Source of the DNA: Thermoflexus sp.
GTDB lineage: Bacteria > Chloroflexota > Anaerolineae > Aggregatilineales > Aggregatilineaceae
Assembly: GCA_020724465.1 (NCBI GenBank)
Contig: DYGX01000004.1
Span: 1 to 64,000 of the forward strand
DNA: 64,000 nt
Direction: 5' to 3'
Part shown: one piece after another, positions 4,241 through 24,746 of the stretch
How positions within the stretch are numbered: position 1 is the first letter of the stretch
How the letters are laid out: each line of letters starts with the position of its first letter
Made by a program: the position numbers and the translations under genes
The notes under the pieces: generated by a model
Databases searched by the model: none
Told to the model about the DNA's origin: nothing
The model's input: the letters and a program-made list of their open reading frames with translations, nothing else

Positions 4241-4374
4241 ACGCGGTGACCGGCGCGCCCGAACCGCACCGCGGCCAATGGCATGCGGACTAAATTCGCG
4301 TATACTGGTGCGTGGTGGCAGCCGCGCGCCTCGCGGCGGCTCGCACCCACACATCGATTGGAGGATCAGGCACG

Positions 4375-5004
4375 ATGCCACCGGAAAAGAGCGGGTTCAA
4401 CTATCCGAACAAGTTCGCCCGGATCACGATTGAGGCGCTGGAAGAGGTGATGGGCAAGAATGGCCTCAACGCGATCCTGCATCTGGCGGGCCTGTCCGAG
4501 TTTGTCAACAACTATCCGCCCGACAATCTTGAGAAAGAATTCGATTTCGCTTATTTCACCGCGCTTTGTGTGGCGCTGGAAGAAATGTACGGTCCGCGCG
4601 GGGGCCGCGGCCTGGCGCTGCGCGCGGGGCGCGCCACCTTCGCCGATGCGCTGCGGGGCTTCGGGGCGCTGGCAGGGGTCGGCGACCTGGCTTTCAAGGT
4701 GCTACCTCTGACGGCCAAGCTCAAGATCGGTCTGCCCGCCATGGCAAACATCTTCACCCAGTTCTCGGACCAGATCTCGAACGTGCACGACGAGGGCGAC
4801 AAGTACGTCTACACGCTGGAGCGCTGCCCCATGTGCTGGAACCGCAAAGCCGACCGACCGGTGTGCTATGTGGGTCAGGGCTTGCTGCAAGAGGGCCTGC
4901 GCTGGGTGTCGGGCGGGCACGAGTTTAAGGTCGACATCTCGACCTGCATCGCCAAGGGCGACGACATGGGTCGCTACATCATCTACAAGCAGCCCATTGA
5001 CTGA
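4375..5004 (+). CDS. V4R (4-vinyl reductase-like) domain protein
   Basis: A 209-residue protein whose C-terminal half looks like the V4R small-molecule or hydrocarbon-binding fold found in BchJ-like proteins and in regulators of aromatic degradation. Supporting features are the CPMC pair near residue 154, a further Cys in PVCYVGQG, the conserved GLLQEGLRW helix and the last cysteine in DISTCIAKGD. The cysteines may bind a metal. There is no DNA-binding domain, so it is probably a sensor or carrier rather than a regulator. ATG 4375 follows GGAGG at 4360-4364; the upstream in-frame GTG at 4312 lacks such a site. Ligand unknown. Confidence 0.7.
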   Translation: MPPEKSGFNYPNKFARITIEALEEVMGKNGLNAILHLAGLSEFVNNYPPDNLEKEFDFAYFTALCVALEEMYGPRGGRGLALRAGRATFADALRGFGALAGVGDLAFKVLPLTAKLKIGLPAMANIFTQFSDQISNVHDEGDKYVYTLERCPMCWNRKADRPVCYVGQGLLQEGLRWVSGGHEFKVDISTCIAKGDDMGRYIIYKQPID

Positions 5005-5342: not shown

Positions 5343-7751
5343 ATGATAAGCCGCTATTCGCTTTGGCGACCGCTGGCCGTGCTCGCGCTGCTGGGTCTGG
5401 CGGCGCTGGCGTGCAATCTCCAGCGCGGGGAGCTGGAACCCACCCCGGCGACCTCGGCCCAGGTCGAGCGCCCCGTCGTCGAGATCCTCGAACCGGCGGA
5501 GGGCGCCACGCTGACTCAGGGCGAGCGCTTCTCGGTCAAGGCCACGGCCAAGTCTCCGTCGGGGATCACCCAGGTCGAGTTGCTGGTCAACAACATCCCG
5601 GTCACCACCCAGCCCCCCGCCGAAAACCTGCGCCCCGAAGAACTGACGGTGGTGCTCGACTACACGCCGCAACAGTCCGGCACGCTCACGCTCAAGGTGC
5701 GCGCCTACAGCGGCGGGGTCACCGGGGAATCGGCGCCGCGCCAGGTGCAGGTGGTCGGCCCGCTCGATCCGGGCCAGGGTGGCGCGGGCACGCCGATCGT
5801 TGGCGTGACGCCGACCGTCTTCAACCCTCAATGCCGCGCCCGGATCAACACGCCGCTGCGCTTCCGCACGGGGCCTGGCACGAACTATGACATCATCCTG
5901 ACCTTCGCGGCGGGCGACGAGCCGCCGATCATCGGCTATGCCAACCAGCCGGACGGCCAGTGGTGGCTGGTCAGCAGCGGCGGGCGCACCGGCTGGATCA
6001 GCGCCGCCTACACGACGCAGTTGGGCAACTGCGCCGGCGTTGGCCCCGCGCTCGTGCCGCCGTCACCGACTCCACCGCCCACCGCCACCCCGCCACCCAC
6101 GCAGCCAGGCGCGACGCCGACGCCCACACCGCCCGATCTGCGGTTGAGCGTGCTCGAAGGCCCGCGCGATGTGACGCTCGACGCCAGCGGCACGGTCAAC
6201 GCCACGTATATCATCCGCGTGCGCAACTACGGCGGGCAGCCAGCCGGTCAGTTCAATGTGGCCGCTGCCGTGCTGGGCCAGCAGCCGCGCGATCTGGGGA
6301 TCGTCTCTGGCCTGGGGCCGGGGCAGGAAGTCGAAATCCCGGCCGGCGGCCTGACCGTCACCTTTAACACGCCCGGCCTGACCCGCCTGCTGGTCACAGT
6401 GGACACCGGCAACACGGTCGCAGAAAGCGACGAGGGCAACAACCAGGCGTACATCGACATCAACGTGAACCCGGGGCCGCAGGCGCTGCAAGTTCAGCCA
6501 CCGCCGCAGCCGCCGGTTGTCGAGCCGACGGCCATCGTCAGCCAGCCGCAGGTCAACATCCTGCCGACCCAGCCGGAGATCCAGGCGTTCGCCCAGCCGC
6601 CGGCCGAGCAGACGCAGCCCGAACCGCCCGTCGAAGCAGCGCCGCTGGCCGAACAGACTCAGCCCGAACTGCCCCCCGCCGAGCAGCCACCGGCTGACCA
6701 GCCGCCCGTTGAGCAGCCGCCCGTTGAGCAGCCACCCGTTGAAGAAGCGCCAGCCGAGCAGGCGATTGGAGCAGCCGCCGTGCCTCTGCCGGTGATCGAC
6801 GCCGGGAACGCGGCCCAACTGCGCGAGCTGATGGTCCTCAGCGGGCACGGCGGGAATGTGTCCGGTGTGGCGTTCAGCCCGCAGGGCGGGCAGCTGGCCT
6901 CGGTGAGCTGGGACGGCACGATCCGCCTGTGGGACCTCGCCAGCGGCCAGCAGGTGAACACCCTGCCCGGCCACGCCGACCGCATCACCAGCCTGGTCTA
7001 CAGCCCGGACGGCACGCGGCTGGCGTCCGGCAGTTGGGACGGCACGATCCGCCTGTGGGACCTCGCCAGCGGCCAGCAGATCGGCATGTACGAGCATGGC
7101 GCGGAGATCAACACCATCGCCATCAGCTACGACGGCTCGCGCATCGCCGCCGGCGGCCTGAACCCCGAAGGCGGCGGGCTGGACGGCCGGGTGCGCGTGT
7201 GGGATGTCGCCAGCGGCACGCTGCTGCGCGAGATCACGACCTACGGCGTCGTCAGCGGGATCGATTTGATCGGCACCAACCTGGTGGCCATCGGGTCCAC
7301 CGGCAAGAGCTGCTCGCAGGGCGGCGACGGGGTCGAGCTGATCAACATTGACACCGGCGAGCCAGCCGCTGCCATCGAGGGCGAGAGCGGCTGGATCAAC
7401 AGCGTGGCGGTCAGTGCGGACGGCGCGTGGATCGCCGGCACCGGCCAGATGGAGCTATGCGCGGGGAATGGCGCGGTCTGGGTGTGGAACAGCGGCAGCG
7501 GCCAGCTTCAGATCACGCTGGATACGGGCCAGAGCAGCGCGGCAACCGCGGTGGCGTTCGGCGCGGGCAATCAGGTCGTGGCCGCCGGCGGCGAGGACGG
7601 CGCGGTGCGCGTCTGGTCGATCAACAACCCGTCTCCGCTGGTCGTGCTGCCCGGACACAATGGAGTCAGCAGCCTGGCCTTCAGTCCGGATGGGACCATG
7701 CTCGCCTCAGGCGGCGGCGACACCCTGATTCGCATCTGGGGCGTGCGCTGA
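5343..7751 (+). CDS. Lipoprotein with SH3, CARDB-like and WD40 propeller domains
   Basis: An 802-residue exported protein. A lipobox LAALAC ends at Cys24, predicting a lipid anchor on the outer face of the membrane. Then follow an Ig-like region (about 40-140), a bacterial SH3 domain (about 163-228), a Pro/Thr-rich linker, a CARDB-like adhesion domain (about 265-377), a degenerate Pro-Glu-Gln-rich spacer (about 385-480) and WD40 repeats from 497 to the C-terminus. Two neighbouring WD repeats share an identical 45-base DNA segment (6909-6953 and 7035-7079), which points to recent duplication or gene conversion. It is probably a surface scaffold or binding protein; no catalytic motif is visible. 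A GC-rich hairpin follows. Confidence 0.8.
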   Translation: MISRYSLWRPLAVLALLGLAALACNLQRGELEPTPATSAQVERPVVEILEPAEGATLTQGERFSVKATAKSPSGITQVELLVNNIPVTTQPPAENLRPEELTVVLDYTPQQSGTLTLKVRAYSGGVTGESAPRQVQVVGPLDPGQGGAGTPIVGVTPTVFNPQCRARINTPLRFRTGPGTNYDIILTFAAGDEPPIIGYANQPDGQWWLVSSGGRTGWISAAYTTQLGNCAGVGPALVPPSPTPPPTATPPPTQPGATPTPTPPDLRLSVLEGPRDVTLDASGTVNATYIIRVRNYGGQPAGQFNVAAAVLGQQPRDLGIVSGLGPGQEVEIPAGGLTVTFNTPGLTRLLVTVDTGNTVAESDEGNNQAYIDINVNPGPQALQVQPPPQPPVVEPTAIVSQPQVNILPTQPEIQAFAQPPAEQTQPEPPVEAAPLAEQTQPELPPAEQPPADQPPVEQPPVEQPPVEEAPAEQAIGAAAVPLPVIDAGNAAQLRELMVLSGHGGNVSGVAFSPQGGQLASVSWDGTIRLWDLASGQQVNTLPGHADRITSLVYSPDGTRLASGSWDGTIRLWDLASGQQIGMYEHGAEINTIAISYDGSRIAAGGLNPEGGGLDGRVRVWDVASGTLLREITTYGVVSGIDLIGTNLVAIGSTGKSCSQGGDGVELINIDTGEPAAAIEGESGWINSVAVSADGAWIAGTGQMELCAGNGAVWVWNSGSGQLQITLDTGQSSAATAVAFGAGNQVVAAGGEDGAVRVWSINNPSPLVVLPGHNGVSSLAFSPDGTMLASGGGDTLIRIWGVR
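6909..7079 (+). repeat. 45-base direct repeat inside the WD40 region
   Basis: Positions 6909-6953 and 7035-7079 are identical over 45 bases, starting TGGGACGGCACGATC. The 126-base offset equals 42 residues, one WD repeat. Confidence 0.9.
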
Positions 7752-8676: not shown

Positions 8677-11600
8677 ATGTCAATCCGTGTTTTGATTATC
8701 GATCCGAATATCCCCTTCATGGTCACGACCAAGCAGGCCCTGGAAGCGACCGGCGAGTTCGAAGTGAGCGTGTCGGCCAACGGCCTGGCCGCCCAGGAAG
8801 CCCTGCGCCAGACGCGGCATGACGTCGCAGTGATCGATTTCAACGTGGCCGATATGGATGTGCTGGAGCTGATCGGCCACCTGCGCCGCTTGCAGCCCGA
8901 TCTGCGCGTGCTGCTGACCTATTCGAGCGACGCGCAGGCGGCCCGCACCCCGCACCTCGGCGCGCAAGGCTCGATTGCCAAGCCCTACACTGCGCGCGCG
9001 CTGATCCCGCATCTGTTCCGCGCTGTCACGCGGCACGTGCCCTTGCAGCCGCCTGCAGAAGCCGCCACCCCACCCGCCGAGGACGAAACGGGCGAGGTCC
9101 CACCACGCGGCCCGGCGCCCTTTACCGAGGTGCCCGACACTGCCGGTAAGGAGCCTGCCGCAGCGGATGAGCAGCCACCAGATGAAGACGCCGCGCCCAC
9201 CGACGCGGACCTGCAGCGGCTGGCCCAGACCCGCTACTTCGGCGACGAGCCGGACCTGGGGGGAACCGACGCGCTCTTCGAGTGGCAGGACACCGACCGC
9301 ACCGGGCAGCTCCCCAAGACGGATTCGCTCGACGGGATGCTCGAGCAACACGGGTGGCTGGAGAGCGAGCCAACACCCCCCTTCCTCGAAGATTACCTGC
9401 CACCGCCTCAGCCGGACGACACTCCGACCGTCCCGCCGCAGGATCTGGACGGCGTGCGCCAGTTTCTGGCGACCGACCTGCCGGAGCACGACCCGACCAC
9501 CTTCGGCGAAGTGCTCGACGCGCTGGCCCAGTCTCCCCTGCCGGATACCGAGCCGTCGCCCGACGATCAGGCGTTTCACGAACTGGTCGATTCGCTGCGC
9601 GCCCCGGCTGCTCCGCCCCGCCGCGGGCCGCTGGACGATCTGCTGGCGCCGCGCGCGCCCGACAGCGACGAAGAGCCGCCGCCCAACCCGCTCGACTACG
9701 TGCTGGAGTCAATCCGGCGCGGGCACCCGCCCCAGGAACCCGATCTGGGAGACGAATCCGAGCTGGACGACACGACCATTGGGGACGTGATCAGCGGCCT
9801 GTTCGACCCATCCTTCGAGAGTGTGCTCGCAGCGCTGGCCGGCAAAGAAGTGGGAGAAGACGATCTGGCCGAGCCGACTTACACCGCCGAAGAGACACGC
9901 GCCCCGTCGAGCCTGAAGCCAGACATAGTCGATCAGATCGGCCTGGAAAGCCTGGATACCAACGCGGCGCTGCCTGACTGGCTCGCGTCCGCCGACCTGC
10001 CCGAACCCGGCGCGCCAGCCGCCCCGCCCGCCCACGAGCCGGCGCCGGACGAAGAGGACTCGTGGCACTATCCCGCCACAACCGCGCTGCACGCCGTCAC
10101 GCAAGACGACGCAGAGGCCGAGTTTTCGCTCAACGACCTGCTCAACCAGATCGAGCAGCAGCTACCGCCGCCGCGCGACCGGCGCCCCCGGCTGCGTCCC
10201 TTGCCTTCGTGGGAAGAAAACGCGACGCCGGAAGAAGCCGAGCAGCTTCGCCAGCTTTTCCCCGACAGCGGCGAGTGGGAGCCGGCCGACCTCGAGGAGC
10301 TGTTCAGCCCGCCCGCGCCCCTGGCCGGGCCGGCGCCGGATGAGACGGCACAGCCCGCCTTCGACGAGGAACCGCCCCTTGCCCTGCCCGAAGCACCTGA
10401 GGAACATTTCGACGCCGGGTGGACGGATGAGGAAGCAGGCGAGCCAGCGGCGGAAGAGGCGCTTCCGGCTCACTTCGACCGCTTCCGCGATCAAGCTCAG
10501 GAAGCAGAGGTGGCCGACAGCGACGAGCGGGACGAGCAGGACGCGGTTGGCGACGCGCTGGAACTCGACCTGGACGCGGACCTGATCGAGGCGGCGCAGC
10601 ACGCCGGGCCGGATGACTTCTTCACCGGGCTGCCCGACATAATGGAAGAAGAAGATACACTCGCAACAGAGATCTCGGAGGCGTTCTACGAGGGGGTGCG
10701 CCAGACGGCCTATACCTGGGACGAAAGCGAGGGCGACACCAGTCAGGGCGAAGCCGCCGCGCCCGATTGGATCCCGCAACCGGTCGAGGACAGCGCCGGC
10801 GAGCCGGAGGTTGAGGAGATACTGCCCGCGCTCGACTATCCGGCGGACGAGGCCGCGCGCAGCGCAGAGCCGGCCGAAATGCCCGCCGCGCACCTGCTCA
10901 TCGAGGAGCCGGAACCGGAGCCGGAAGCCCCGCCGCCCGAAGACGACGAGGAAGCGGCGCGGCTGGCCCAGATCGCCCTGCAGCTGACCCAGTTCTCGCT
11001 CGAAAGCTCGGCGCAGGCGACGCTGCTGACCTCTGGCGGCGAGTTGATCGCCGAAGCGGGCGACCTGCCCGCCCCCGCGCTGGAACGCCTGGAGCAGACC
11101 ATCGCCGTGGCGTGGTCGACCAGCCCGCCCGATCACGACTCGCTGAGCCGCTATGTGACCTTGCCCGACGCGGGCGAGTTCCTGCTCTACAGCACGGCGG
11201 TTGGCGAGGGGATGGTGTTGAGCATGGTCTTCAGCAGCAACACCTCGATCCGCACCATCCGGCGCCAGGCCCGGCGCCTGAGCGAAGCGCTTGATCTGGT
11301 TCCGGAGCCGGTCGAGACGCCCGAGGCGCCCGCTGCCGTCACGCACCCCAGCCGCCCGACCGATCTGCGCGCCCCGGAGGGGCTGCGCGCCGCGCCAGCC
11401 GGGCGCGAGCAAGGCGCGCCCGTCCGTCACGCGCCGCGCCCCGACGTGCCGTACACCAGCTATTGCCTGCTGTGGCTGCCCTGGGATCCGCGCCTGGAGC
11501 TAGAAGGCGACTACGCCGCCGCGCTGCGCGGGTGGATCGCAGACATCGCCGCGCGGAATGCGTGGGAAATCGACGAACTGGATATTGAGACCGACTACAT

Positions 11601-11823
11601 CCGGCTGACACTCAAGGTCCCGCAGAAAAGCCTACCCGACGCGGTGATCCAGATGCTCTTCGACGAGACGGCGCGCCTGACTCAGGAGCACTTTCCGGAG
11701 CGCATCGACGCCGCCGGGCGGCTGTGGGCCAACGGCTATTACGTCGTCACGCCGCCGCGCGCGCTCAGCGACCGCGAAATCGGACGCTTCATCACCTACC
11801 AGCGCCAGGCACAGGCCAGCTAG
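8677..11823 (+). CDS. Receiver / Roadblock-like / inactive IS200-type transposase-like fusion protein
   Basis: A 1048-residue cytosolic protein with no signal peptide. Residues 1-120 are a response-regulator receiver with phosphoacceptor Asp54 and the conserved Lys in SIAKPY; the usual acidic pair is reduced to Asp9-Pro10. Residues about 125-755 are very acidic, Pro/Glu-rich and apparently disordered. Residues about 759-872 look like a Roadblock/LC7 (MglB-like) domain. Residues about 926-1048 resemble an IS200/IS605 Y1 transposase: strand pattern, the helix before LWANGYYV, and a terminal helix. In that family the metal-binding HUH motif would fall at Tyr974-Ile975-Arg976, and the nucleophile Tyr at Phe1038, so catalysis should be lost. 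Probably a scaffold or nucleic-acid-binding signalling protein; function unknown. Confidence 0.7.
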   Translation: MSIRVLIIDPNIPFMVTTKQALEATGEFEVSVSANGLAAQEALRQTRHDVAVIDFNVADMDVLELIGHLRRLQPDLRVLLTYSSDAQAARTPHLGAQGSIAKPYTARALIPHLFRAVTRHVPLQPPAEAATPPAEDETGEVPPRGPAPFTEVPDTAGKEPAAADEQPPDEDAAPTDADLQRLAQTRYFGDEPDLGGTDALFEWQDTDRTGQLPKTDSLDGMLEQHGWLESEPTPPFLEDYLPPPQPDDTPTVPPQDLDGVRQFLATDLPEHDPTTFGEVLDALAQSPLPDTEPSPDDQAFHELVDSLRAPAAPPRRGPLDDLLAPRAPDSDEEPPPNPLDYVLESIRRGHPPQEPDLGDESELDDTTIGDVISGLFDPSFESVLAALAGKEVGEDDLAEPTYTAEETRAPSSLKPDIVDQIGLESLDTNAALPDWLASADLPEPGAPAAPPAHEPAPDEEDSWHYPATTALHAVTQDDAEAEFSLNDLLNQIEQQLPPPRDRRPRLRPLPSWEENATPEEAEQLRQLFPDSGEWEPADLEELFSPPAPLAGPAPDETAQPAFDEEPPLALPEAPEEHFDAGWTDEEAGEPAAEEALPAHFDRFRDQAQEAEVADSDERDEQDAVGDALELDLDADLIEAAQHAGPDDFFTGLPDIMEEEDTLATEISEAFYEGVRQTAYTWDESEGDTSQGEAAAPDWIPQPVEDSAGEPEVEEILPALDYPADEAARSAEPAEMPAAHLLIEEPEPEPEAPPPEDDEEAARLAQIALQLTQFSLESSAQATLLTSGGELIAEAGDLPAPALERLEQTIAVAWSTSPPDHDSLSRYVTLPDAGEFLLYSTAVGEGMVLSMVFSSNTSIRTIRRQARRLSEALDLVPEPVETPEAPAAVTHPSRPTDLRAPEGLRAAPAGREQGAPVRHAPRPDVPYTSYCLLWLPWDPRLELEGDYAAALRGWIADIAARNAWEIDELDIETDYIRLTLKVPQKSLPDAVIQMLFDETARLTQEHFPERIDAAGRLWANGYYVVTPPRALSDREIGRFITYQRQAQAS

Positions 11824-11948: not shown

Positions 11949-13493
11949 TCAGTTCAGGCGGGTGGCGCTGCCGGTCAACACCCACTGAACATAGGTGCTC
12001 GTTCCACCGGTTGCCGTGATGGTGACCTGCCCGGTGCGCGAGTCGTACGTCACCTCGCGATCAACCAGTGTCTGCCCGCAGCTATACGTCTGCCCGCCGG
12101 TGAAGAATTGAATGTTCTGTGTGCCGGTTCCGAAGCACGACGCGGTGATCACCAGCCGCGCACGCCCGCCCGACAGCGCCGGATTCGGATTCATCCCCGT
12201 GATGTCGAAACGGACACGGTCTTCGCGATCTCCGCCGGGGTAGGACACGAAATCGGTGGTTGAGGCGGTGCTATCGAGCGGGATGTTAAGGGGTGCATTG
12301 AAGTTCGCGTCCGGCGCCGCTTCGGGTACCGGCGGCGACGGGGTGAAGCTGGGCGTGTAGGTCGGCGTCCGCGTGGGCGTATAGCTCGGCGTGTAGGTCG
12401 GCGTCCAGGTGGGTGTGTAGCTGGGCGTGTAAGTCAGTGTCAGCGTGCGCGTGGAGCCTGGCGTGTAAGTGGGCGTATGCGTGAGCGTATAGGTCGCCGT
12501 CGCGCCGGGCGGCGTGGACGACGGGGTGAACGACGGCGTATAGCTCGGCGTGCGGGTCGGGGTGTAGCTGGGCGTATCGGTTGCTGTGCCCGCCAGCAGG
12601 CCGCGCGGCGTCGGCGAGGGGATCGGCGTCGCGGTCGCGTCCGGATCGGGTGTGAGCGTGGCCGTCACCATGAGCGTAGAAAGCGGTGTCGCCGACGGGG
12701 TGGCGGTCAGGCTCGCCTCAGGTGTGGGGGTGGTGGCAGGCGCGCTCACTGCGCCACCGGGTACCTGGGCGGGTCCGCCATCGGGTGCGGCGGCAGGCGC
12801 GGGAAGCGTCCCTTCCCAGCGCAGCGCGATCTCAGCCTGCTCCGGACCCGGTTCGAGCGCCAGGAAGTAGGAACGATCCCCTGGCAGACGGAGCGCCGCG
12901 CCGGGCAGTGAGCCATCGCCCAGCTCGGCGATCACGCGGGAGTCCTCGGGGTCGATCAGCACCACGCGAGGGAGCGCGCCCTCACCTGTTTCGAGCGGGG
13001 CCATGGTCAGCAGCGTCTCGAGGTAGTCCGGCTGTGTGTCCAACCGGAAACGTATCACGTTTCCGGCGAGCGGGGCAATTGTCACCGTGTTGAAAGGCAA
13101 CGGATCAGGCAGGTTCGCCGCGGCGGTCAGTTGGATGACCAGATCGCCGCTCGCTGCGGCCTGATCAATGACCAGCGTGTAGCGCCCGCTGCGCGTCGCG
13201 GGATCGACGGCCAGCACGGCGTTGCCGGTGCCATCGACCGCCAGCGGCGCGAGCGCCTGCAACGGATCGATCAGCGTCGCGCTGTACGCAACCGGCGCCA
13301 GCGCGAGCAGGCGTAGCTCAAACCGGTCACCGGCCAGCGCGACAAAGGCAAGCTGCTGAACGGCGCCGGGGGTCAAGGTTACGATCAGCGGTTCGTCAAA
13401 GCGGATGATAAGCGGGTCGTCCTGAGCGCGGACGGGGGCGGCGCCAAATATCAGCGCCAGGATAAGAGCAGCAAACAACAGGCGGTAGAGCAT
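11949..13493 (-). CDS. Secreted protein with YTP-type Thr/Pro repeats
   Basis: A 514-residue exported protein. A signal peptide with a likely cleavage after PVRAQ near residue 22 leads into two regions resembling bacterial pre-peptidase C-terminal beta-sandwich domains (about 25-240). A Thr/Pro/Tyr-rich low-complexity tract (about 260-390) has short TPTYTPSY-like units, and a C-terminal beta domain of about 115 residues with two cysteines follows. The tract probably forms an extended, perhaps glycosylated, stalk. No catalytic residues recognised. Start at 13493 follows a CTGGAGG site; a longer upstream frame lacks one. A terminator separates it from the gene upstream. Confidence 0.75.
   Translation of the reverse strand: MLYRLLFAALILALIFGAAPVRAQDDPLIIRFDEPLIVTLTPGAVQQLAFVALAGDRFELRLLALAPVAYSATLIDPLQALAPLAVDGTGNAVLAVDPATRSGRYTLVIDQAAASGDLVIQLTAAANLPDPLPFNTVTIAPLAGNVIRFRLDTQPDYLETLLTMAPLETGEGALPRVVLIDPEDSRVIAELGDGSLPGAALRLPGDRSYFLALEPGPEQAEIALRWEGTLPAPAAAPDGGPAQVPGGAVSAPATTPTPEASLTATPSATPLSTLMVTATLTPDPDATATPIPSPTPRGLLAGTATDTPSYTPTRTPSYTPSFTPSSTPPGATATYTLTHTPTYTPGSTRTLTLTYTPSYTPTWTPTYTPSYTPTRTPTYTPSFTPSPPVPEAAPDANFNAPLNIPLDSTASTTDFVSYPGGDREDRVRFDITGMNPNPALSGGRARLVITASCFGTGTQNIQFFTGGQTYSCGQTLVDREVTYDSRTGQVTITATGGTSTYVQWVLTGSATRLN
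12340..12590 (-). repeat. Short tandem coding repeats for the Thr/Pro stalk
   Basis: Imperfect 6-12 base units such as GGCGTGTAGGTCGGCGT recur throughout this interval on the plus strand. They encode TPTYTP and TPSYTP units in the minus-strand gene and stay in frame. Confidence 0.85.
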
Positions 13494-13664
13494 GGTGGCG
13501 CCTCCAGGTGACGTTTGAGCGCGACGGGAAGCGTCGTTCTGCAGGGCAGCATCCGGCAAGAAACGATCAGTACGATTGTATCATATGTTTCGTAATATTT
13601 TGTAAAATAATAATATAAAGCGGAAAACTGCTCGCTGACCGGCCTGGTTGGCGGTCGAGGCGTC

Positions 13665-13726: not shown

Positions 13727-14482
13727 CTACTCCACGACCGTCATCGGCAGCGGCGCGCCGCCCCACACCTCGTCAAAGTTCGGCCCCATCGTCTCCACCG
13801 GAACCCACAGGTACGTGCAGTTCAGCACCACCTTGCGGAACTGCCCGCTCTCGTCCACGCCGAACGTCCACAGCGTCGTGTTCCAGGGAATCAGGACCTC
13901 AGGCTCGGTCTTCTTGCTGAAGTCCGGCGCCCAGTAGGTCTCGGCGGTGTGCACAAAGCGCCCGACCACCGCCCCTTCGAGCGGGATCGTCACATCGCAG
14001 CCGGGCAGAATGACCTCTTCAACAGGCTGCTGATCGGCAGGCAGTTCATCGACAGGCTCTTCGCCCTCACCCGGCTCCTCGCAAACCAGTTCGCTGACGG
14101 GGATGCTTACCTCGCGCGACAGGCTCCCATCCACCGTCACTGTGAAGTAGAGTGTCTCGGCCCCTTCCGGATATTCGACCGAGAGCGTACCGCTCATCTC
14201 CTGCGGCTCGGCCCAGTCCAGGTCATGAGTGGCGCTGTCAATCTCAGTTGTGTCTGCGCCAATGCCGTAACTGGTCGTCACCTCTACCGTGGCTGTGCCT
14301 TCCGTTGGCGCTCCTTCCAGCACTTCGAGGGTATAGTCCCCGGTGCAGAAATCGTAAGAGAGGAACCCCACCGGACCCTCACCGACTTCTTCCTGGGCGG
14401 CAACCGGACCGCGCACAGGAAGAACCGCCGCCACTGCCAGAGCGGCTACCACAGTCAGAACGAATGCGATACGCGATTTCAT
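13727..14482 (-). CDS. Secreted protein of unknown function
   Basis: A 251-residue protein with a clear signal peptide (hydrophobic about residues 6-27, cleavage likely after PVAAQ). The mature part is acidic, with a beta-rich N-terminal domain (about 35-135), a short Glu/Pro spacer near 140-160 and a C-terminal segment with many aromatic residues that could be SH3-like. Four or five cysteines are spread through the mature region and may form disulfides. I recognise no family. The ATG at 14482 has a strong AGGAAGG site 3-9 bases upstream. It has its own promoter and terminator, so it is likely monocistronic. Confidence 0.7.
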   Translation of the reverse strand: MKSRIAFVLTVVAALAVAAVLPVRGPVAAQEEVGEGPVGFLSYDFCTGDYTLEVLEGAPTEGTATVEVTTSYGIGADTTEIDSATHDLDWAEPQEMSGTLSVEYPEGAETLYFTVTVDGSLSREVSIPVSELVCEEPGEGEEPVDELPADQQPVEEVILPGCDVTIPLEGAVVGRFVHTAETYWAPDFSKKTEPEVLIPWNTTLWTFGVDESGQFRKVVLNCTYLWVPVETMGPNFDEVWGGAPLPMTVVE

Positions 14483-14732: not shown

Positions 14733-14773
14733 ACGCACATCTGTTCCGAATCCCAGCGATAGGAATGACGCCG

Positions 14774-17623
14774 ATGGCACGCCCCACCCTGGTTCTGATC
14801 GACGGCCACGCGCTGGCGTACCGCCAGTTCTTCGCCCTGCCGATTGAGAGCTTCAGCACCCGCAGCGGCGAGCCGACCAATGCCACCTTCGGCTTTGCCC
14901 GCACCCTGCTGGATATCCTAGAGAAAAACCCGGAGTACCTGGCCATCAGCTTTGATCAGGGCCTCACCGGGCGTGAGCAGCTTTACGGCGAATACAAGGG
15001 CACGCGCGACAAGATGCCCAACGAGTTGCGCGTCCAGATCGAGCGCATCCGCGAGCTGGTGCAAGCATTCAACATCCCGATCCTGGAGCTGGAAGGCATC
15101 GAAGCCGACGACGTGATCGGCTCGGTCGCGCCCCAGGCCGAGGCCGAAGGCGCCGACGTCCTGATCATCACCGGCGACCGCGACTTGCTCCAACTGCTGA
15201 CCGAACACACCCGGGTGCAGCTTCCCGGCAAGACGCTCGGTGACGCGCGCGTCTACGATCTGGCGCGCTTCCGCGAAGAATACGGGATCGAGCCGCACCA
15301 GCTTCCGGAGCTGAAAGGGTTGATGGGCGACGCCTCGGACAACATCCCCGGCATCAAGGGGGTGGGCGAGAAAACCGCCAAGAAGCTGATCATGGAGTAC
15401 GGCAGCGTCGCCGGAGTGTACGAGCACCTTGACGAGATCAAGGGGGCGCTGCGCACCAAGCTTGAGGAAGGGCGCGACAGCGCGTTCCTGTCGGTCGCCC
15501 TGGCGACCATCCGGCGCGACGTGCCCGTCCGGCTGGAGCTTTCGCGCTGTGTCGCACGTGATTACCGCTATGAGGACGTCGAGCCAATCTTCCGGGCGCT
15601 GGAGTTTCGCCAGTTGATCCGGCGGCTGCCGGGCCGCCCCGGCGCCGACTTGACCGGCGCTCCCGGCCAGCAGTTGACCATGTTCGACACGGCACACGAG
15701 GCCGAGATCCCGCTGCCGCCGGTCGAGGGCGTCGTCCCGTTCGCCGTAGTGGACGACGAAGCCGCGCTTGCCGCGCTGGTCGAGCGGCTGGCGTCCGCCG
15801 AGGCGATTGCCTTCGACGTGGAGACAACCTCGACCGACCAGATGCTCGCCGATCTGGTGGGCATCTCGCTGGCCGTCAGCGAGGATCAGGGGTTCTACAT
15901 CCCGGTCGGGCACATCGCGCCCAACGCGCCGCCCCGCCCCGCCGCGCAGACCCAGCCCGATCTGGTCGAAGGCCACACGCCCCGGCAGCTTCCGCTCGAC
16001 CGGGTCATCGAGGCGCTGCGCCCCGCCCTGACCGATCCCGCGATCCCCAAGTACGGGCACAACGCGCCGTATGATCTGGTCGTGCTGCGCCGCTACGGGA
16101 TCGACGTCAGCCCGATCACGTTTGACACGATGGTGGGCGAGTGGGTGTGCGATCCGGGCAGCCGCAACCTGGGCCTGAAAAACCTGGCCTGGGTGCGGCT
16201 GGGCGTGCAAATGACCGAAATCGCCGACCTGATCGGCGCTGGCCGGAATCAGATCACCATGGACCGCGTGCCGGTGGAGCTGGCTGCGCCGTATGCCGCC
16301 GCCGACGCCGCCCTGACCTTTCGGCTGGTGGGCGTGCTGCGGCCCGAACTGGAAGAAAAGCAGGCCTGGAAGCTGTTCAGCGAGATCGAGATGCCGCTCG
16401 TCCCGATCATCGCGGACATGGATATGGCGGGCGTGCTGCTGGACGTGCCCTTTCTGCGCGAGATGAGCGCCGAACTCAGCGAGCGACTGCGCACACTGGA
16501 GCAGGAGATCGACGCGCTCAGCGGCGGCTACGGGCACTTCAACCCCGGCAGCCCGAAGCAGCTCAACGAAGTCTTGTTCGACCACCTCAAGCTGACGACC
16601 GAAGGGCTGCGCAAGACGTCGCACGGCTTCAGCACCGCCGCCGACGTGCTCGAAAGCCTGCGCGGCGAGCATCCAATCGTCGAGAAGATCCTGCACTGGC
16701 GCGAGCTTCAGAAGCTGCAAAGCACCTATGTGGACGCGCTGCCCACGCTGGTCAACCCACACACCGGGCGCGTGCATACCAGCTTTAATCAGACCGGCAC
16801 CTCGACCGGGCGCCTGTCGTCCAGCAACCCGAACTTGCAGAACATCCCGATCCGCACCGAAGAGGGCCGCCGGGTGCGCCGCGCCTTCATCGCCCCGGCG
16901 GGACACTGCCTGCTCTCGGTGGACTACAGCCAGGTCGAGCTGCGCATCCTGGCGCACTATAGCCAGGACGCGGCTCTGCTGGCGGCCTTCCGCGAGGGGC
17001 AGGACATCCACCGGGCCACCGCTGCCGCCGTCTACCACGTCCCGCTGGAAGAAGTGACCTACGAGCAGCGCAGCTTCGCCAAGTCGGTCAACTTCGGGTT
17101 GATGTACGGGATGGGCGCGTACCGGCTGGCGCGCGAGAGCAACCTGACGCTGGCCGAGGCCGAGGCGTTCATCGCCGGGTACTTCCAGCAATTTCCCGGC
17201 GTGCGCCGCTATCTCGACGCCTCGCTGCAGCGCGCGCGCGAGCTAGGCTACGTTGAGACGCTGCTGGGCCGCCGTCGCTATTTCCCGATCCTGCACGACA
17301 AGGGTCCGGTGCAGGCCAGCTTCCAGGCCCGGCAGCGCGCCGAGCGCGAAGCGATCAACATGCCGATCCAGGGCACGGCGGCGGACATCATCAAGATCGC
17401 CATGATCAACCTGGCGCACGCGCTGAAGGATGGCGGCTATCAGGCCAAATTGATCCTGCAGGTGCACGACGAGCTGGTGCTCGAAGTGCCCGACGATGAG
17501 ATCGAGACGGTTGCCCCGCTGACGGTTGAGATCATGGAATCCGCGTTCACGCTTGACGCGCCGCTGGTGGCGGACGCGCGCGTGGGGACTAACTGGGCCG
17601 AGATGACGCCGTACGGGCGCTGA
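14774..17623 (+). CDS. polA: DNA polymerase I
   Basis: A 949-residue, three-domain polymerase for Okazaki fragment processing and repair. The N-terminal 5' nuclease domain (about 1-295) has the GIEADD metal site. The 3'-5' exonuclease (about 325-510) keeps all three motifs: FDVETT, the Asn-Asp pair of GHNAPYD, and YAAAD, so proofreading should be active. The polymerase domain (about 560-949) shows motif A VDYSQVELR, the O-helix RSFAKSVNFGLMYG and motif C VHDELVLE. ATG 14774 was chosen because AGGA (14761-14764) is correctly spaced from it and abuts the other ATG at 14765. Monocistronic by context. Confidence 0.95.
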   Translation: MARPTLVLIDGHALAYRQFFALPIESFSTRSGEPTNATFGFARTLLDILEKNPEYLAISFDQGLTGREQLYGEYKGTRDKMPNELRVQIERIRELVQAFNIPILELEGIEADDVIGSVAPQAEAEGADVLIITGDRDLLQLLTEHTRVQLPGKTLGDARVYDLARFREEYGIEPHQLPELKGLMGDASDNIPGIKGVGEKTAKKLIMEYGSVAGVYEHLDEIKGALRTKLEEGRDSAFLSVALATIRRDVPVRLELSRCVARDYRYEDVEPIFRALEFRQLIRRLPGRPGADLTGAPGQQLTMFDTAHEAEIPLPPVEGVVPFAVVDDEAALAALVERLASAEAIAFDVETTSTDQMLADLVGISLAVSEDQGFYIPVGHIAPNAPPRPAAQTQPDLVEGHTPRQLPLDRVIEALRPALTDPAIPKYGHNAPYDLVVLRRYGIDVSPITFDTMVGEWVCDPGSRNLGLKNLAWVRLGVQMTEIADLIGAGRNQITMDRVPVELAAPYAAADAALTFRLVGVLRPELEEKQAWKLFSEIEMPLVPIIADMDMAGVLLDVPFLREMSAELSERLRTLEQEIDALSGGYGHFNPGSPKQLNEVLFDHLKLTTEGLRKTSHGFSTAADVLESLRGEHPIVEKILHWRELQKLQSTYVDALPTLVNPHTGRVHTSFNQTGTSTGRLSSSNPNLQNIPIRTEEGRRVRRAFIAPAGHCLLSVDYSQVELRILAHYSQDAALLAAFREGQDIHRATAAAVYHVPLEEVTYEQRSFAKSVNFGLMYGMGAYRLARESNLTLAEAEAFIAGYFQQFPGVRRYLDASLQRARELGYVETLLGRRRYFPILHDKGPVQASFQARQRAEREAINMPIQGTAADIIKIAMINLAHALKDGGYQAKLILQVHDELVLEVPDDEIETVAPLTVEIMESAFTLDAPLVADARVGTNWAEMTPYGR

Positions 17624-21308: not shown

Positions 21309-21343
21309 CCGGCGGCGTGTCAGTGGCATGCCGCCGGATTTTC
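21309..21343 (+). terminator. Intrinsic terminator after the peptide-binding protein
   Basis: CCGGCGGC (21309-21316) pairs with GCCGCCGG (21330-21337) and is followed by ATTTTCT, 29 bases after the stop. Confidence 0.85.
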
Positions 21344-21388
21344 TCCCTGGCACGCGTCGCCCGGCTGCAAGTACCGCACAGCAAATTG

Positions 21389-21397
21389 TGCTATACT
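21389..21397 (+). promoter_or_regulatory. Extended -10 promoter for argF
   Basis: TGCTATACT with the hexamer at 21392-21397 lies 55 bases before the GTG start; no good -35 is seen. Confidence 0.55.
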
Positions 21398-21451
21398 ACT
21401 CCCCGAAATCCCTGTTCGAGAGCCTTCCTTCCGAATCCGCGAGGTAACACG

Positions 21452-22441
21452 GTGAAACATTTCCTGGATATCGCTGACTGGTCTTCCGCCGATCTGTGGG
21501 ACATGCTCAACATCGCCCGCGTGCTCAAAGAGCAGTACAAGACGAAGGGCGCCAACAAGCCGCTGCTCAAGGGCAAGGCGCTGGGCATGATCTTCCAGAA
21601 ACCGTCGCTGCGTACGCGTGTCAGCTTCGAGATGGCGATGCAGCATGTTGGCGGGCACGCGCTCTACCTCAGCCCGCAGGAGATCGGCCTCGGCAAGCGC
21701 GAGAGCATCGCGGATGTGGCGCGCGTGCTGGGCAGCTATGTCCACATCATCATGGCGCGCACCTTCGAGCACGAGCACGTCCTGGAGCTGGCGCAGTGGA
21801 GTCCCGTCCCCGTGATCAACGGGCTGACCGACTATAACCACCCGTGCCAGGCGATGGCCGATATGCTGACCATCTACGAGGAGTTTGGCCGGCTGGAAGG
21901 GCTGCACCTGGCCTACGTTGGGGATAGCAACAACGTCGCCACCAGCCTGATGATGGCCGCCGCGCAGTTCGGTATGCAGATGACCATCGGCAGCCCGCCG
22001 GGCTACCAGCCTAAAGAGGAAGTGATCGAAAAGGCGTTCCGGCTGTCGCGCGGGCGGCTGAGCGTCGGCGTGACCAGCGACCCGGTCGCAGCCGTGCAGA
22101 ACGCCGATGTGGTCTATACCGATACGTGGACCAGCATGGGACAGGAAGAGGAAGCCGAGCGGCGGCGCCAGGTCTTCCCGCCCTATCAGGTCAACGCCGA
22201 GTTGCTCAAGCACGCTGCGCCCCACGCGATCGTCATGCACTGTCTGCCGGCCCATCGCGGCGAGGAGATCACCGACGAGGTGGCCGACGGCCCGCAGTCG
22301 CGGCTGTTCCCGCAGGCAGAAAACCGCCTGCACGCGCAGAAGGGCATCCTGGTCTATTTGCTGGAAGACGCCGGGCAGCTCACCAAGAAATCGCGCCAGC
22401 GGTTCGAGAAGATCGTTCAGGTGATTCGGGGGCAGGAGTAA
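21452..22441 (+). CDS. argF: Ornithine carbamoyltransferase
   Basis: A 329-residue enzyme that makes citrulline from ornithine and carbamoyl phosphate in arginine synthesis. The carbamoyl-phosphate loop is KPSLRTR at residues 50-56, a common variant of STRTR. The chain continues with HPCQ, the ornithine-binding DTWTSMG loop, and MHCLPAHRG with the catalytic Cys. The SMG loop separates it from aspartate carbamoyltransferase. The GTG at 21452 has a GAGG site 7 bases upstream and matches the usual KHFLDIADW start. No other arginine genes adjoin it; the TPR gene begins 64 bases downstream. Confidence 0.95.
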
Positions 22442-22505: not shown

Positions 22506-24746
22506 ATGGCAGGGAACCGTCACATCTACGAACAGGCGATGAACGCCGGCCACAGCGCCGCCTGGGACCAGCACTGGGACCGGGCGATTGCCGCGTATGG
22601 CCGTGCCGTTCAGGAATTCCCGGACGACCCGGCGGCGCATAACAGCCTGGGGCTGGCGCTGCTTCAGGCGCGGCGGCTGGAAGATGCGCTGAAGGTCTAC
22701 ACCCGCGCGCACCAACTCGCGCCAGACGACACCATCCCGCTGGAAAAAAGCGCCGACGTCTTGGAGCGGCTGGGGCGGCTTAAGGAAGCAGCCCAGCAGT
22801 ACATTAACGTCGCCGAACTCTATCTGGCGCAGCGAGACCTGGAGAAAGCCATCGCCAACTGGGAGCGGGCCACCCAGCTTACCAGCGGCCTGGTGCAGAT
22901 CCACCAGCGGCTGGCGCTGGCCTACGAGCGCACCGGGCAGCGCCGGGCCGCGATCCGCGAATACCTGACACTGGCCTTCACCTTCCAGCGCGCCAACCGC
23001 CCCGACATCGCGGAGCAGGCCGTCCAGCGCGCTCTGCGGCTGGACCCCAACCACCCGCAAACGCTCAACACGCTGCACGCTCTGAACACCGGCCAGTTGA
23101 TCTCGCCCGATGTGCTCGAAGATCACGAGGCGGCCAGCGTGCTGCGCCGCGAGCGCGCCTTCGATGCGTCGGTGCTGGCAGAGGAAGCCGCAGACACCGA
23201 TGATCCGCGCGGGCCGCTCGGCGAGGCGATGGAGAACGGCCTGGCCGCGCTGGCAGCGGCCGTCTTCGAGGCAAACGAACTCGACGATGGCGGCATGCAT
23301 GTGCTGCAGGCGATTGAGTACCAGCGCGTCGACGCGGTTGAAGAGGCGGTGGCAGCCTACCGGCGCGCGCTGGATGCCGGCTTCCGGCACCCCGGCGTTT
23401 ACATCAACCTGGGCGTGCTGCTGTTGGACCTCAACCAGACGAAGGACGCCGTGCGCGCCCTGGAGGAAGCGGGCAAAGACCCGCTGCTGGCCCCCGGCGC
23501 GATGCAGGCCCTCAGCCTGGCGCACTTCGCCCAGCGCAATCACCGCGCCGCCGCTTACTACCTGACTCAGACGCTGCGCCTGGTCGATACCGGGCAGGCG
23601 ATGCGCCCCGACGAAGCCGCGCAGCTTGGCACCATCTACGACCGGCTGACGGCCAGCATCGACGAGGCCGACGACCAGCAACTGCGCAATATGAACGAGC
23701 GCTTCCTGGAACTGCTCACCGGGCCGAACTGGAAGCAGCGCGTCGCCAAGACCCGCCGCCAGCTTGAAGAGGCGATCACGCTCGAAGAGCCGGAATCGCT
23801 CATCAGCATCGTGCCGTACATCAACGACCGCGTCACCGAAGGGCTGAACCTGGTCGAAGAGTATATGCGCAGCGGGCTGTACACGCTGGCGATGGACCAG
23901 GCGCATTACCTGCTCGAATCGGCGCCGGACTACCTGCCGATTCACTATCGCATCGGCCAGATTCTGCTGGAGCGCGAGAACATCCAGGAAGCGATCATCA
24001 AGTACGACCTGGTCGCCAACGTCTACCTGATGCGCGGCGATGTCCAGCGCGCCGCCGAGATCCTGCAGGAAGCGCTGAAGATCGCGCCGATGGACGTCAA
24101 GCTTCACCACAGCCTGATCGATCTGCTGGAAAAAGAAGAACGGTGGGACGAGGTTCTCAACCAGCATATCGACCTGGCCGACGCATACTACCAGCTGGCG
24201 GACCTGGATGCCGCGCACGCGACGTACCAGGCCGCGATCCAGCTTGCCGAGCGGGTCAACGCCCCAACCGAGAAGGTGGTGCATATCCTGCACCGCCTGG
24301 GCGATATCGACGTCAGCCGGTTCGAGCTGCGCCAGGCGATGCGCACCTACGAGCAGATCCGCAAGCTCGACCCGAACGACGAGCGCGCGCGCCGGATGCT
24401 GGTGGACCTGAACTACAAGCTCAACGACCCGGTTTCGGCGGTGCGCGAGCTGGACGGCCTGCTACGGGTCTATGCCCGCCAGCGCCGCGCCGGTCAGATT
24501 ATCAAGGTGTTGGAAGAGCAGGTCACGCGCTACCCGCAGGATATGGCGCTGCGGTCGCGCCTGGCGGCGGTCTATCGCCAGACGGGCAACCTGGAGAAAG
24601 CCGTCGAGCAGCTTGACACGCTGGCCGAGCTTCAGCTTGAAGTGGGCATGCACAACGACGCGCTGGTGACTATCCGCCACATCATCGCGCTGAACCCGGA
24701 GCATGTCGAGGATTACAAACGGCTGTTGAGGCAACTGAGCGGCTGA
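22506..24746 (+). CDS. Tetratricopeptide-repeat protein
   Basis: A 746-residue cytosolic protein made almost wholly of TPR helices. The clearest repeats are about residues 15-180 (for example WDRAIAAYGRAVQEFPDDPA), 275-310, 455-560 and 610-735. No signal peptide, transmembrane segment or enzymatic motif is visible, so it most likely scaffolds other proteins. A less regular helical stretch (about 330-440) breaks the array. It could be co-transcribed with argF, but no functional link is known. The gap to cdaA (135 bases) has no clear terminator. Confidence 0.85.
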   Translation: MAGNRHIYEQAMNAGHSAAWDQHWDRAIAAYGRAVQEFPDDPAAHNSLGLALLQARRLEDALKVYTRAHQLAPDDTIPLEKSADVLERLGRLKEAAQQYINVAELYLAQRDLEKAIANWERATQLTSGLVQIHQRLALAYERTGQRRAAIREYLTLAFTFQRANRPDIAEQAVQRALRLDPNHPQTLNTLHALNTGQLISPDVLEDHEAASVLRRERAFDASVLAEEAADTDDPRGPLGEAMENGLAALAAAVFEANELDDGGMHVLQAIEYQRVDAVEEAVAAYRRALDAGFRHPGVYINLGVLLLDLNQTKDAVRALEEAGKDPLLAPGAMQALSLAHFAQRNHRAAAYYLTQTLRLVDTGQAMRPDEAAQLGTIYDRLTASIDEADDQQLRNMNERFLELLTGPNWKQRVAKTRRQLEEAITLEEPESLISIVPYINDRVTEGLNLVEEYMRSGLYTLAMDQAHYLLESAPDYLPIHYRIGQILLERENIQEAIIKYDLVANVYLMRGDVQRAAEILQEALKIAPMDVKLHHSLIDLLEKEERWDEVLNQHIDLADAYYQLADLDAAHATYQAAIQLAERVNAPTEKVVHILHRLGDIDVSRFELRQAMRTYEQIRKLDPNDERARRMLVDLNYKLNDPVSAVRELDGLLRVYARQRRAGQIIKVLEEQVTRYPQDMALRSRLAAVYRQTGNLEKAVEQLDTLAELQLEVGMHNDALVTIRHIIALNPEHVEDYKRLLRQLSG

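Follow-up and report, generated by a model that had tools for sequence, protein, structure and literature searches.

Y1 transposases of the IS200/IS605 family (TnpA) carry an HUH pair of histidines in the motif DHIHL and a nucleophilic tyrosine in the motif KKYIEEQ. The third metal ligand position of Y1 proteins is a glutamine (Q131), four residues after the tyrosine (PMC6006769). Some TnpA relatives, the RAYTs (TnpA-REP), have been retained by host genomes; they keep the HUH pair and the tyrosine, and their targets are REP hairpins (see PMC6006769). A large survey set aside Y1 proteins that did not have both motifs and treated them as non-functional (PMC6006769). On the signaling side, fusions of Response_reg and Robl_LC7 domains, with an N-terminal receiver and C-terminal similarity to MglB, were noted earlier; the passages of that paper dealing with these five sequences mention neither a Y1 domain nor a polA neighbor (PMC4316618).

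The gene studied here, at 8677 to 11823 (+) of a 64-kb stretch of DNA (the window), joins all three folds in one protein of 1,048 aa, as judged from its ORF, Pfam matches, relatives, and dN/dS values. The analyses support three folded domains in the order receiver, acidic linker, Roadblock, linker, and Y1, the last being catalytically dead and tamed, and the whole being kept by selection. We found no description of the receiver-Roadblock-Y1 combination in the open-licence literature searched, which agrees with the sequence-only reading, where no described system with it was known, but the receiver-Roadblock part of the fusion had already been noted (in the passages of PMC4316618 cited above).

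Domain architecture of the fusion protein

The receiver, the Roadblock-like domain, and the Y1-type C-terminal domain claimed from the ORF were all recovered by Pfam, profile searches, and AlphaFold2, and the four residues named in that claim (Asp54, Tyr974, Arg976, and Phe1038) are correct in the phmmer alignment to PDB sequences and in the family alignment. The receiver (aa 1 to 118; 8677 to 9030, +) matches Pfam Response_reg over aa 5 to 110 (E = 2.5e−10) and keeps Asp54 and Lys102. The phosphoacceptor aspartate is kept in 92 of 102 homologs and the lysine in 87 of 102. The Mg2+-binding acidic pair is incomplete: the fusion protein has D9 alone, followed by P10, and only 19 of 102 homologs have an acid at this first position. 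From these residues, many family members may carry pseudo-receivers, and the receiver of the fusion protein itself is best classed as intermediate, with D9 present and the second acid absent. The proposed phosphorylation switch is uncertain: most members retain the Asp and Lys, but D9 is all that is left of the acidic pair here, and most homologs lack the pair.

The linker (aa 119 to 744; 9031 to 10908, +), defined by charge and family alignment, is strongly acidic and of low complexity (net charge of −138 for aa 119 to 758). This fits its description as an acidic disordered middle, but it also carries short motifs conserved in the family, at aa 363 to 392 (TIGDVIxGLFDPSFExVLAALAG; 9763 to 9852, +) and aa 482 to 513 (FSLxxLLxQIEQQLPP..RPRLRPLPSW; 10120 to 10215, +), so the linker is more than filler. 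A beta-clamp-like motif (QLRQLF) behind one of these motifs was dropped from consideration, because by eye it was not kept in other families.

The Roadblock/LC7-fold domain (about aa 755 to 880; 10939 to 11316, +) was identified by family profile, AlphaFold2 model, and fold search. When 33 members were scanned individually, the Roadblock segment alone gave no Robl_LC7 match by Pfam. The family profile of this region, searched against the PDB, matches MglB (3t1s) at E = 1e−4, and its best 20 PDB matches are all Roadblock proteins (MglB and LAMTOR2/p14). We modeled aa 745 to 1048 as a monomer with AlphaFold2, with 60 sequences in the alignment; pLDDT is mostly >90 in the Roadblock and Y1 domains, and the link between them is of low confidence. 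A fold search with this model confirmed both the TnpA and the Roadblock folds. Compared by Foldseek and VIA-align, the Roadblock part gave a Z of 14.9 against 3leq (rmsd of 2.1 over 100 aligned residues) and 14.5 against MglB 6izw. The fold is therefore like that of MglB and LAMTOR2/p14 (Z of 14 to 15), with the order helix-strand-strand-helix-three strands-helix, but here it is embedded in a long fusion, lies beyond the reach of the Pfam model, and has no recognized GTPase gene adjoining. The predicted structure of L116, a full-length homolog from f32, which is the largest family, also shows the Roadblock fold, together with the receiver fold.

The C-terminal Y1 domain (aa 925 to 1048; 11449 to 11820, +) was recognized by Pfam, phmmer, profile, and AlphaFold2. 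Pfam Y1_Tnp matches aa 931 to 1040 with an E of 1.4e−8 in the whole protein and 2.4e−10 for the domain alone, passing the curated cutoff. The domain aligns with IS200 TnpA sequences of the PDB (phmmer; E of about 3e−7, and 2.5e−7 for 2f4f), the family profile of this region matches 2f4f at E = 7e−23, and the Y1 part of the model superposes on TnpA 2fyx with a Z of 16.5 (rmsd of 2.5 over 125 aligned residues; Foldseek, VIA-align). The last 124 residues are thus alike in fold and sequence to IS200/IS605 TnpA (2f4f, 2ec2, 2fyx, ISDra2 TnpA, and IS608 TnpA), but the family differs from these in that the HUH pair is gone, the tyrosine is often a phenylalanine, and 900 extra residues are fused. In the fusion protein, DHIHL of TnpA has become D973-Y974-I975-R976-L (DYIRL), so that codons 974 to 976 (11596 to 11604, +) encode Y-I-R in place of H-u-H, and Phe1038 (11788 to 11790, +; phmmer and family alignments) replaces the nucleophile. 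These changes also remove the motifs that RAYTs keep. The third metal ligand glutamine is present as Q1042 and is kept in 20 of 105 homologs.

Across 105 distinct homologs, none keeps both histidines: the first has become Tyr in 91 homologs and Phe in another 8, and the second has become Gln in 70. The nucleophile position is divided between Phe (53 of 105) and Tyr (50 of 105). The double loss of the HUH pair and the tyrosine is therefore true of the protein encoded at 8677 to 11823, but the loss common to the whole family is that of the HUH pair alone. The fusion protein retains the fold residues Y929, W933, D973, and W1017; most of the basic residues conserved in TnpA have been lost from the Y1 domain in its lineage, and positions 938 and 995, K or R in every TnpA row compared, are P and F. 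The net charge of the Y1 domain is −7 in the fusion protein, −6 on average in members without the QW motif, and +2.3 in the QW-type (f32-like) members, against a mean of +5.7 in a comparison set of 24 TnpA-type Chloroflexota sequences, three of them HUH-less themselves. An acidic Y1 domain that has lost its conserved basic residues favors contacts with protein rather than DNA. Judged by sequence, DNA binding by the fusion protein looks unlikely, and the earlier idea of a DNA- or RNA-binding module was not borne out for it; the slightly basic Y1 domains of f32 may still bind nucleic acids.

Distribution and inheritance of the family

Among 17 relatives from the same GTDB family, all gave a match and 16 of these were specific (G009 was matched by a receiver alone). 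With the Y1 part as query, long ORFs were found throughout the class Anaerolineae, with one long fusion copy per genome, and the proteins extracted from these relatives share the order receiver, linker, Roadblock-like domain, linker, and Y1. The survey of homologs thus confirmed that the domain order is retained across Anaerolineae and that the HUH pair is broken in 105 of 105. A pattern for the Roadblock part, run on the contigs of GTDB genomes, gave 80 named loci. All belong to Chloroflexota, and the titles of nearly all read Anaerolineae or Anaerolineales. One locus (L110), titled Chloroflexus sp., groups inside the Anaerolineales-type rows of the tree and is probably misnamed. Chloroflexota was the phylum sampled in depth; since the pattern is narrow, relatives may also exist beyond Chloroflexota or Anaerolineae. 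In a sample of 400 Chloroflexota genomes, the fusion order was seen only in Anaerolineae, and Y1 matches outside this class were mostly transposase sized (130 to 210 aa); two of the few longer frames there (L253 and L254) were inspected and are ordinary TnpA ORFs.

Maximum-likelihood analysis places the fusion family in one clade (99/99), separate from 27 other TnpA-type rows, most of which have an intact HUH pair and tyrosine. Four short stand-alone HUH-less Y1 paralogs (L051, L056, L090, and L258; 144 to 194 aa) are nested in the f32 fusion family. The maximum-likelihood tree also contains a second HUH-less clade (100/93) of stand-alone Y1 proteins of 135 to 190 aa from other Chloroflexota classes (L239 to L244 and L246 to L252, e.g., L239, 9209 to 9727). 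These have PDRVY in 12 of 13 cases and PGAVF in L243, most have an AT-hook-like RRPRGRPRK tail, and in most of their loci the next gene downstream encodes a ClpC/ClpE-like AAA+ protein.

Distances computed for the Roadblock and Y1 parts correlate with PolA distances (Mantel r = 0.89; 0 of 500 permutations). Beyond the gene's own family, Roadblock plus Y1 has a mean identity of 74%, versus 70% for PolA. By these sequence comparisons, the two domains are as conserved as PolA and are inherited together with it. Against the close relative L098, dN/dS is 0 for the receiver, 0.20 for the Roadblock domain, and 0.06 for the Y1 domain; against L099, the folded parts have values between 0.25 and 0.27. 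These low values show that the gene is under purifying selection. The idea that it has no selected function, being a transposon remnant fused by chance or in decay, or that the domains were called wrongly, could draw on the lost catalytic residues and the modest scores of single sequences, but it is contradicted by the class-wide architecture, folded domains with dN/dS between 0 and 0.28, PolA-like identity, and a confident fold, and we consider it scarcely credible.

Genomic context: polA and flanking hairpins

Immediately downstream of the fusion gene, 62 of 76 named loci carry polA in the same orientation, and in 49 of 69 the second gene downstream encodes a TPR protein. The upstream neighbor is variable, with no family above 20 of 74 loci. 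This fixed place beside polA was missed in the sequence-only reading. In the window, polA (14765 to 17623, +), which lies directly behind the fusion gene in most relatives and encodes DNA polymerase I with 5'-3' exonuclease, 3'-5' exonuclease, and polymerase parts, is separated from it by two minus-strand genes for secreted-type proteins, the first with TPTxTPS repeats (11949 to 13559, −) and the second at 13727 to 14482 (−). Both are absent between the two genes in L099, a relative of the same genus. Downstream follow a gene for an ornithine/aspartate carbamoyltransferase (21317 to 22441, +), which comes after polA in the conserved block of the order, and one for a TPR-repeat protein (22506 to 24746, +), third in the conserved block fusion gene-polA-TPR. 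The second gene upstream (5343 to 7751) encodes an 802-aa protein with strong WD40-repeat matches. A 230-aa protein (4312 to 5004), whose MetOD1 match is weak (E = 0.0015, below the cutoff), is conserved close to this locus in several of the order's genomes.

Unlike TnpA, the fusion family is represented by one long gene that keeps its place and has been passed on together with polA. The status of a mobile element, that is, a short stand-alone gene of variable place and copy number, was therefore rejected: there is one long copy, it lies mostly beside polA, and it has a Mantel r of 0.89. Since the Roadblock and Y1 parts are conserved like PolA and inherited with it, the HUH pair is lost throughout, and the gene keeps its place by polA, the fusion protein is an old domesticated host protein of Anaerolineae.

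Of 72 loci, 33 carry a hairpin resembling a terminator in the interval that separates the fusion gene from polA; cotranscription of the two genes is doubtful in these loci, as it is in the window, where the two unrelated minus-strand genes intervene. In f32 loci, this interval holds a hairpin of the form CGCAGAG-TATAAT-n2-3-CTCTGCG, followed by a T-run and showing compensatory changes (e.g., L147, 9215 to 9237). It occurs exactly once per genome in 12 of the 23 f32 genomes checked, and the single copy adjoins the fusion gene wherever both positions were compared. This hairpin was found in only two genera and looks like an intrinsic terminator. Behind the gene at 8677 to 11823, no such hairpin was seen when the locus was examined. 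In the 130 bases upstream of the fusion gene, no common hairpin was found (mean folding z weak, at −0.65), no Rfam family matched within the window, and a promoter scan found nothing.

Candidate functions of the fusion protein

In known relatives, both Y1 and Roadblock domains form homodimers. The reading that we favor, with a probability of about one in two, is that the fusion protein dimerizes and acts as a regulatory scaffold with a link to DNA polymerase I, a function that we infer and rank over nucleic-acid binding and GTPase regulation. The Y1 and Roadblock domains would now provide dimerization and docking surfaces, while the receiver, whether genuine or a pseudo-receiver, and the acidic linker with its motifs would tune or recruit partners. 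The protein could thereby scaffold a process that uses DNA polymerase I, such as gap filling, primer removal, or repair; alternatively, its target may be the expression of polA itself. Gene neighborhoods can, however, persist without a functional tie.

An unlikely alternative, although the best placed, is that the Y1 domain is a nucleic-acid-binding output, holding a DNA or RNA hairpin uncut under the gating of the receiver and Roadblock domains and, for example, controlling polA. TnpA relatives do bind hairpins, as in solved complexes among the structural matches, the Y1 domains of f32 are slightly basic, and the CGCAGAG hairpin with its compensatory changes sits right behind the gene in 12 of 23 genomes. 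But the fusion protein's own Y1 domain has a charge of −7 and has exchanged the invariant basic residues at 938 and 995 for P and F, and the hairpin, terminator-like and found in only two genera, was not seen behind its gene. A more elaborate version is a long shot: a transposase domain, disarmed once in the Anaerolineae, would serve a receiver-Roadblock signaling protein as its output module for sensing or controlling the work of DNA polymerase I, in some lineages through a single hairpin (CGCAGAG-TATAAT-CTCTGCG) retained precisely between the protein's gene and polA.

We also consider improbable, and rank behind hairpin binding, a regulator of a small GTPase of the MglB/RomR kind, whose Roadblock domain would bind an MglA-like GTPase with the receiver as input and the Y1 domain as spacer or dimerizer, polA being incidental. 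Its Roadblock fold is nearest to MglB and LAMTOR2, and the receiver protein RomR works with MglA and MglB (PMC4316618; PMC6785124). Small-GTPase-like genes were found in 12 of 12 genomes searched, including one of 189 aa in the gene's own genome, but this search with an Arf profile says little because 12 of 14 control genomes were also positive. Moreover, no GTPase gene was recognized among the conserved neighbors, and the tie to polA would be left unexplained.

Returning to the scaffold and to the family as a whole, a homolog (L116, 7566 to 9167) passes the NCBIfam model for IS200/IS605 transposases (61.8 bits; cutoff of 55), so public genomes probably list members of the family as transposases. 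A gene that may be called a transposase in databases is thus really an old host protein, in which the catalytic site was dropped across a class-wide family while the fold was kept at PolA-like conservation and joined to two signaling folds beside polA. Should its link to PolA prove functional, the fusion protein would provide DNA polymerase I with a signaling input for which we know of no described counterpart.
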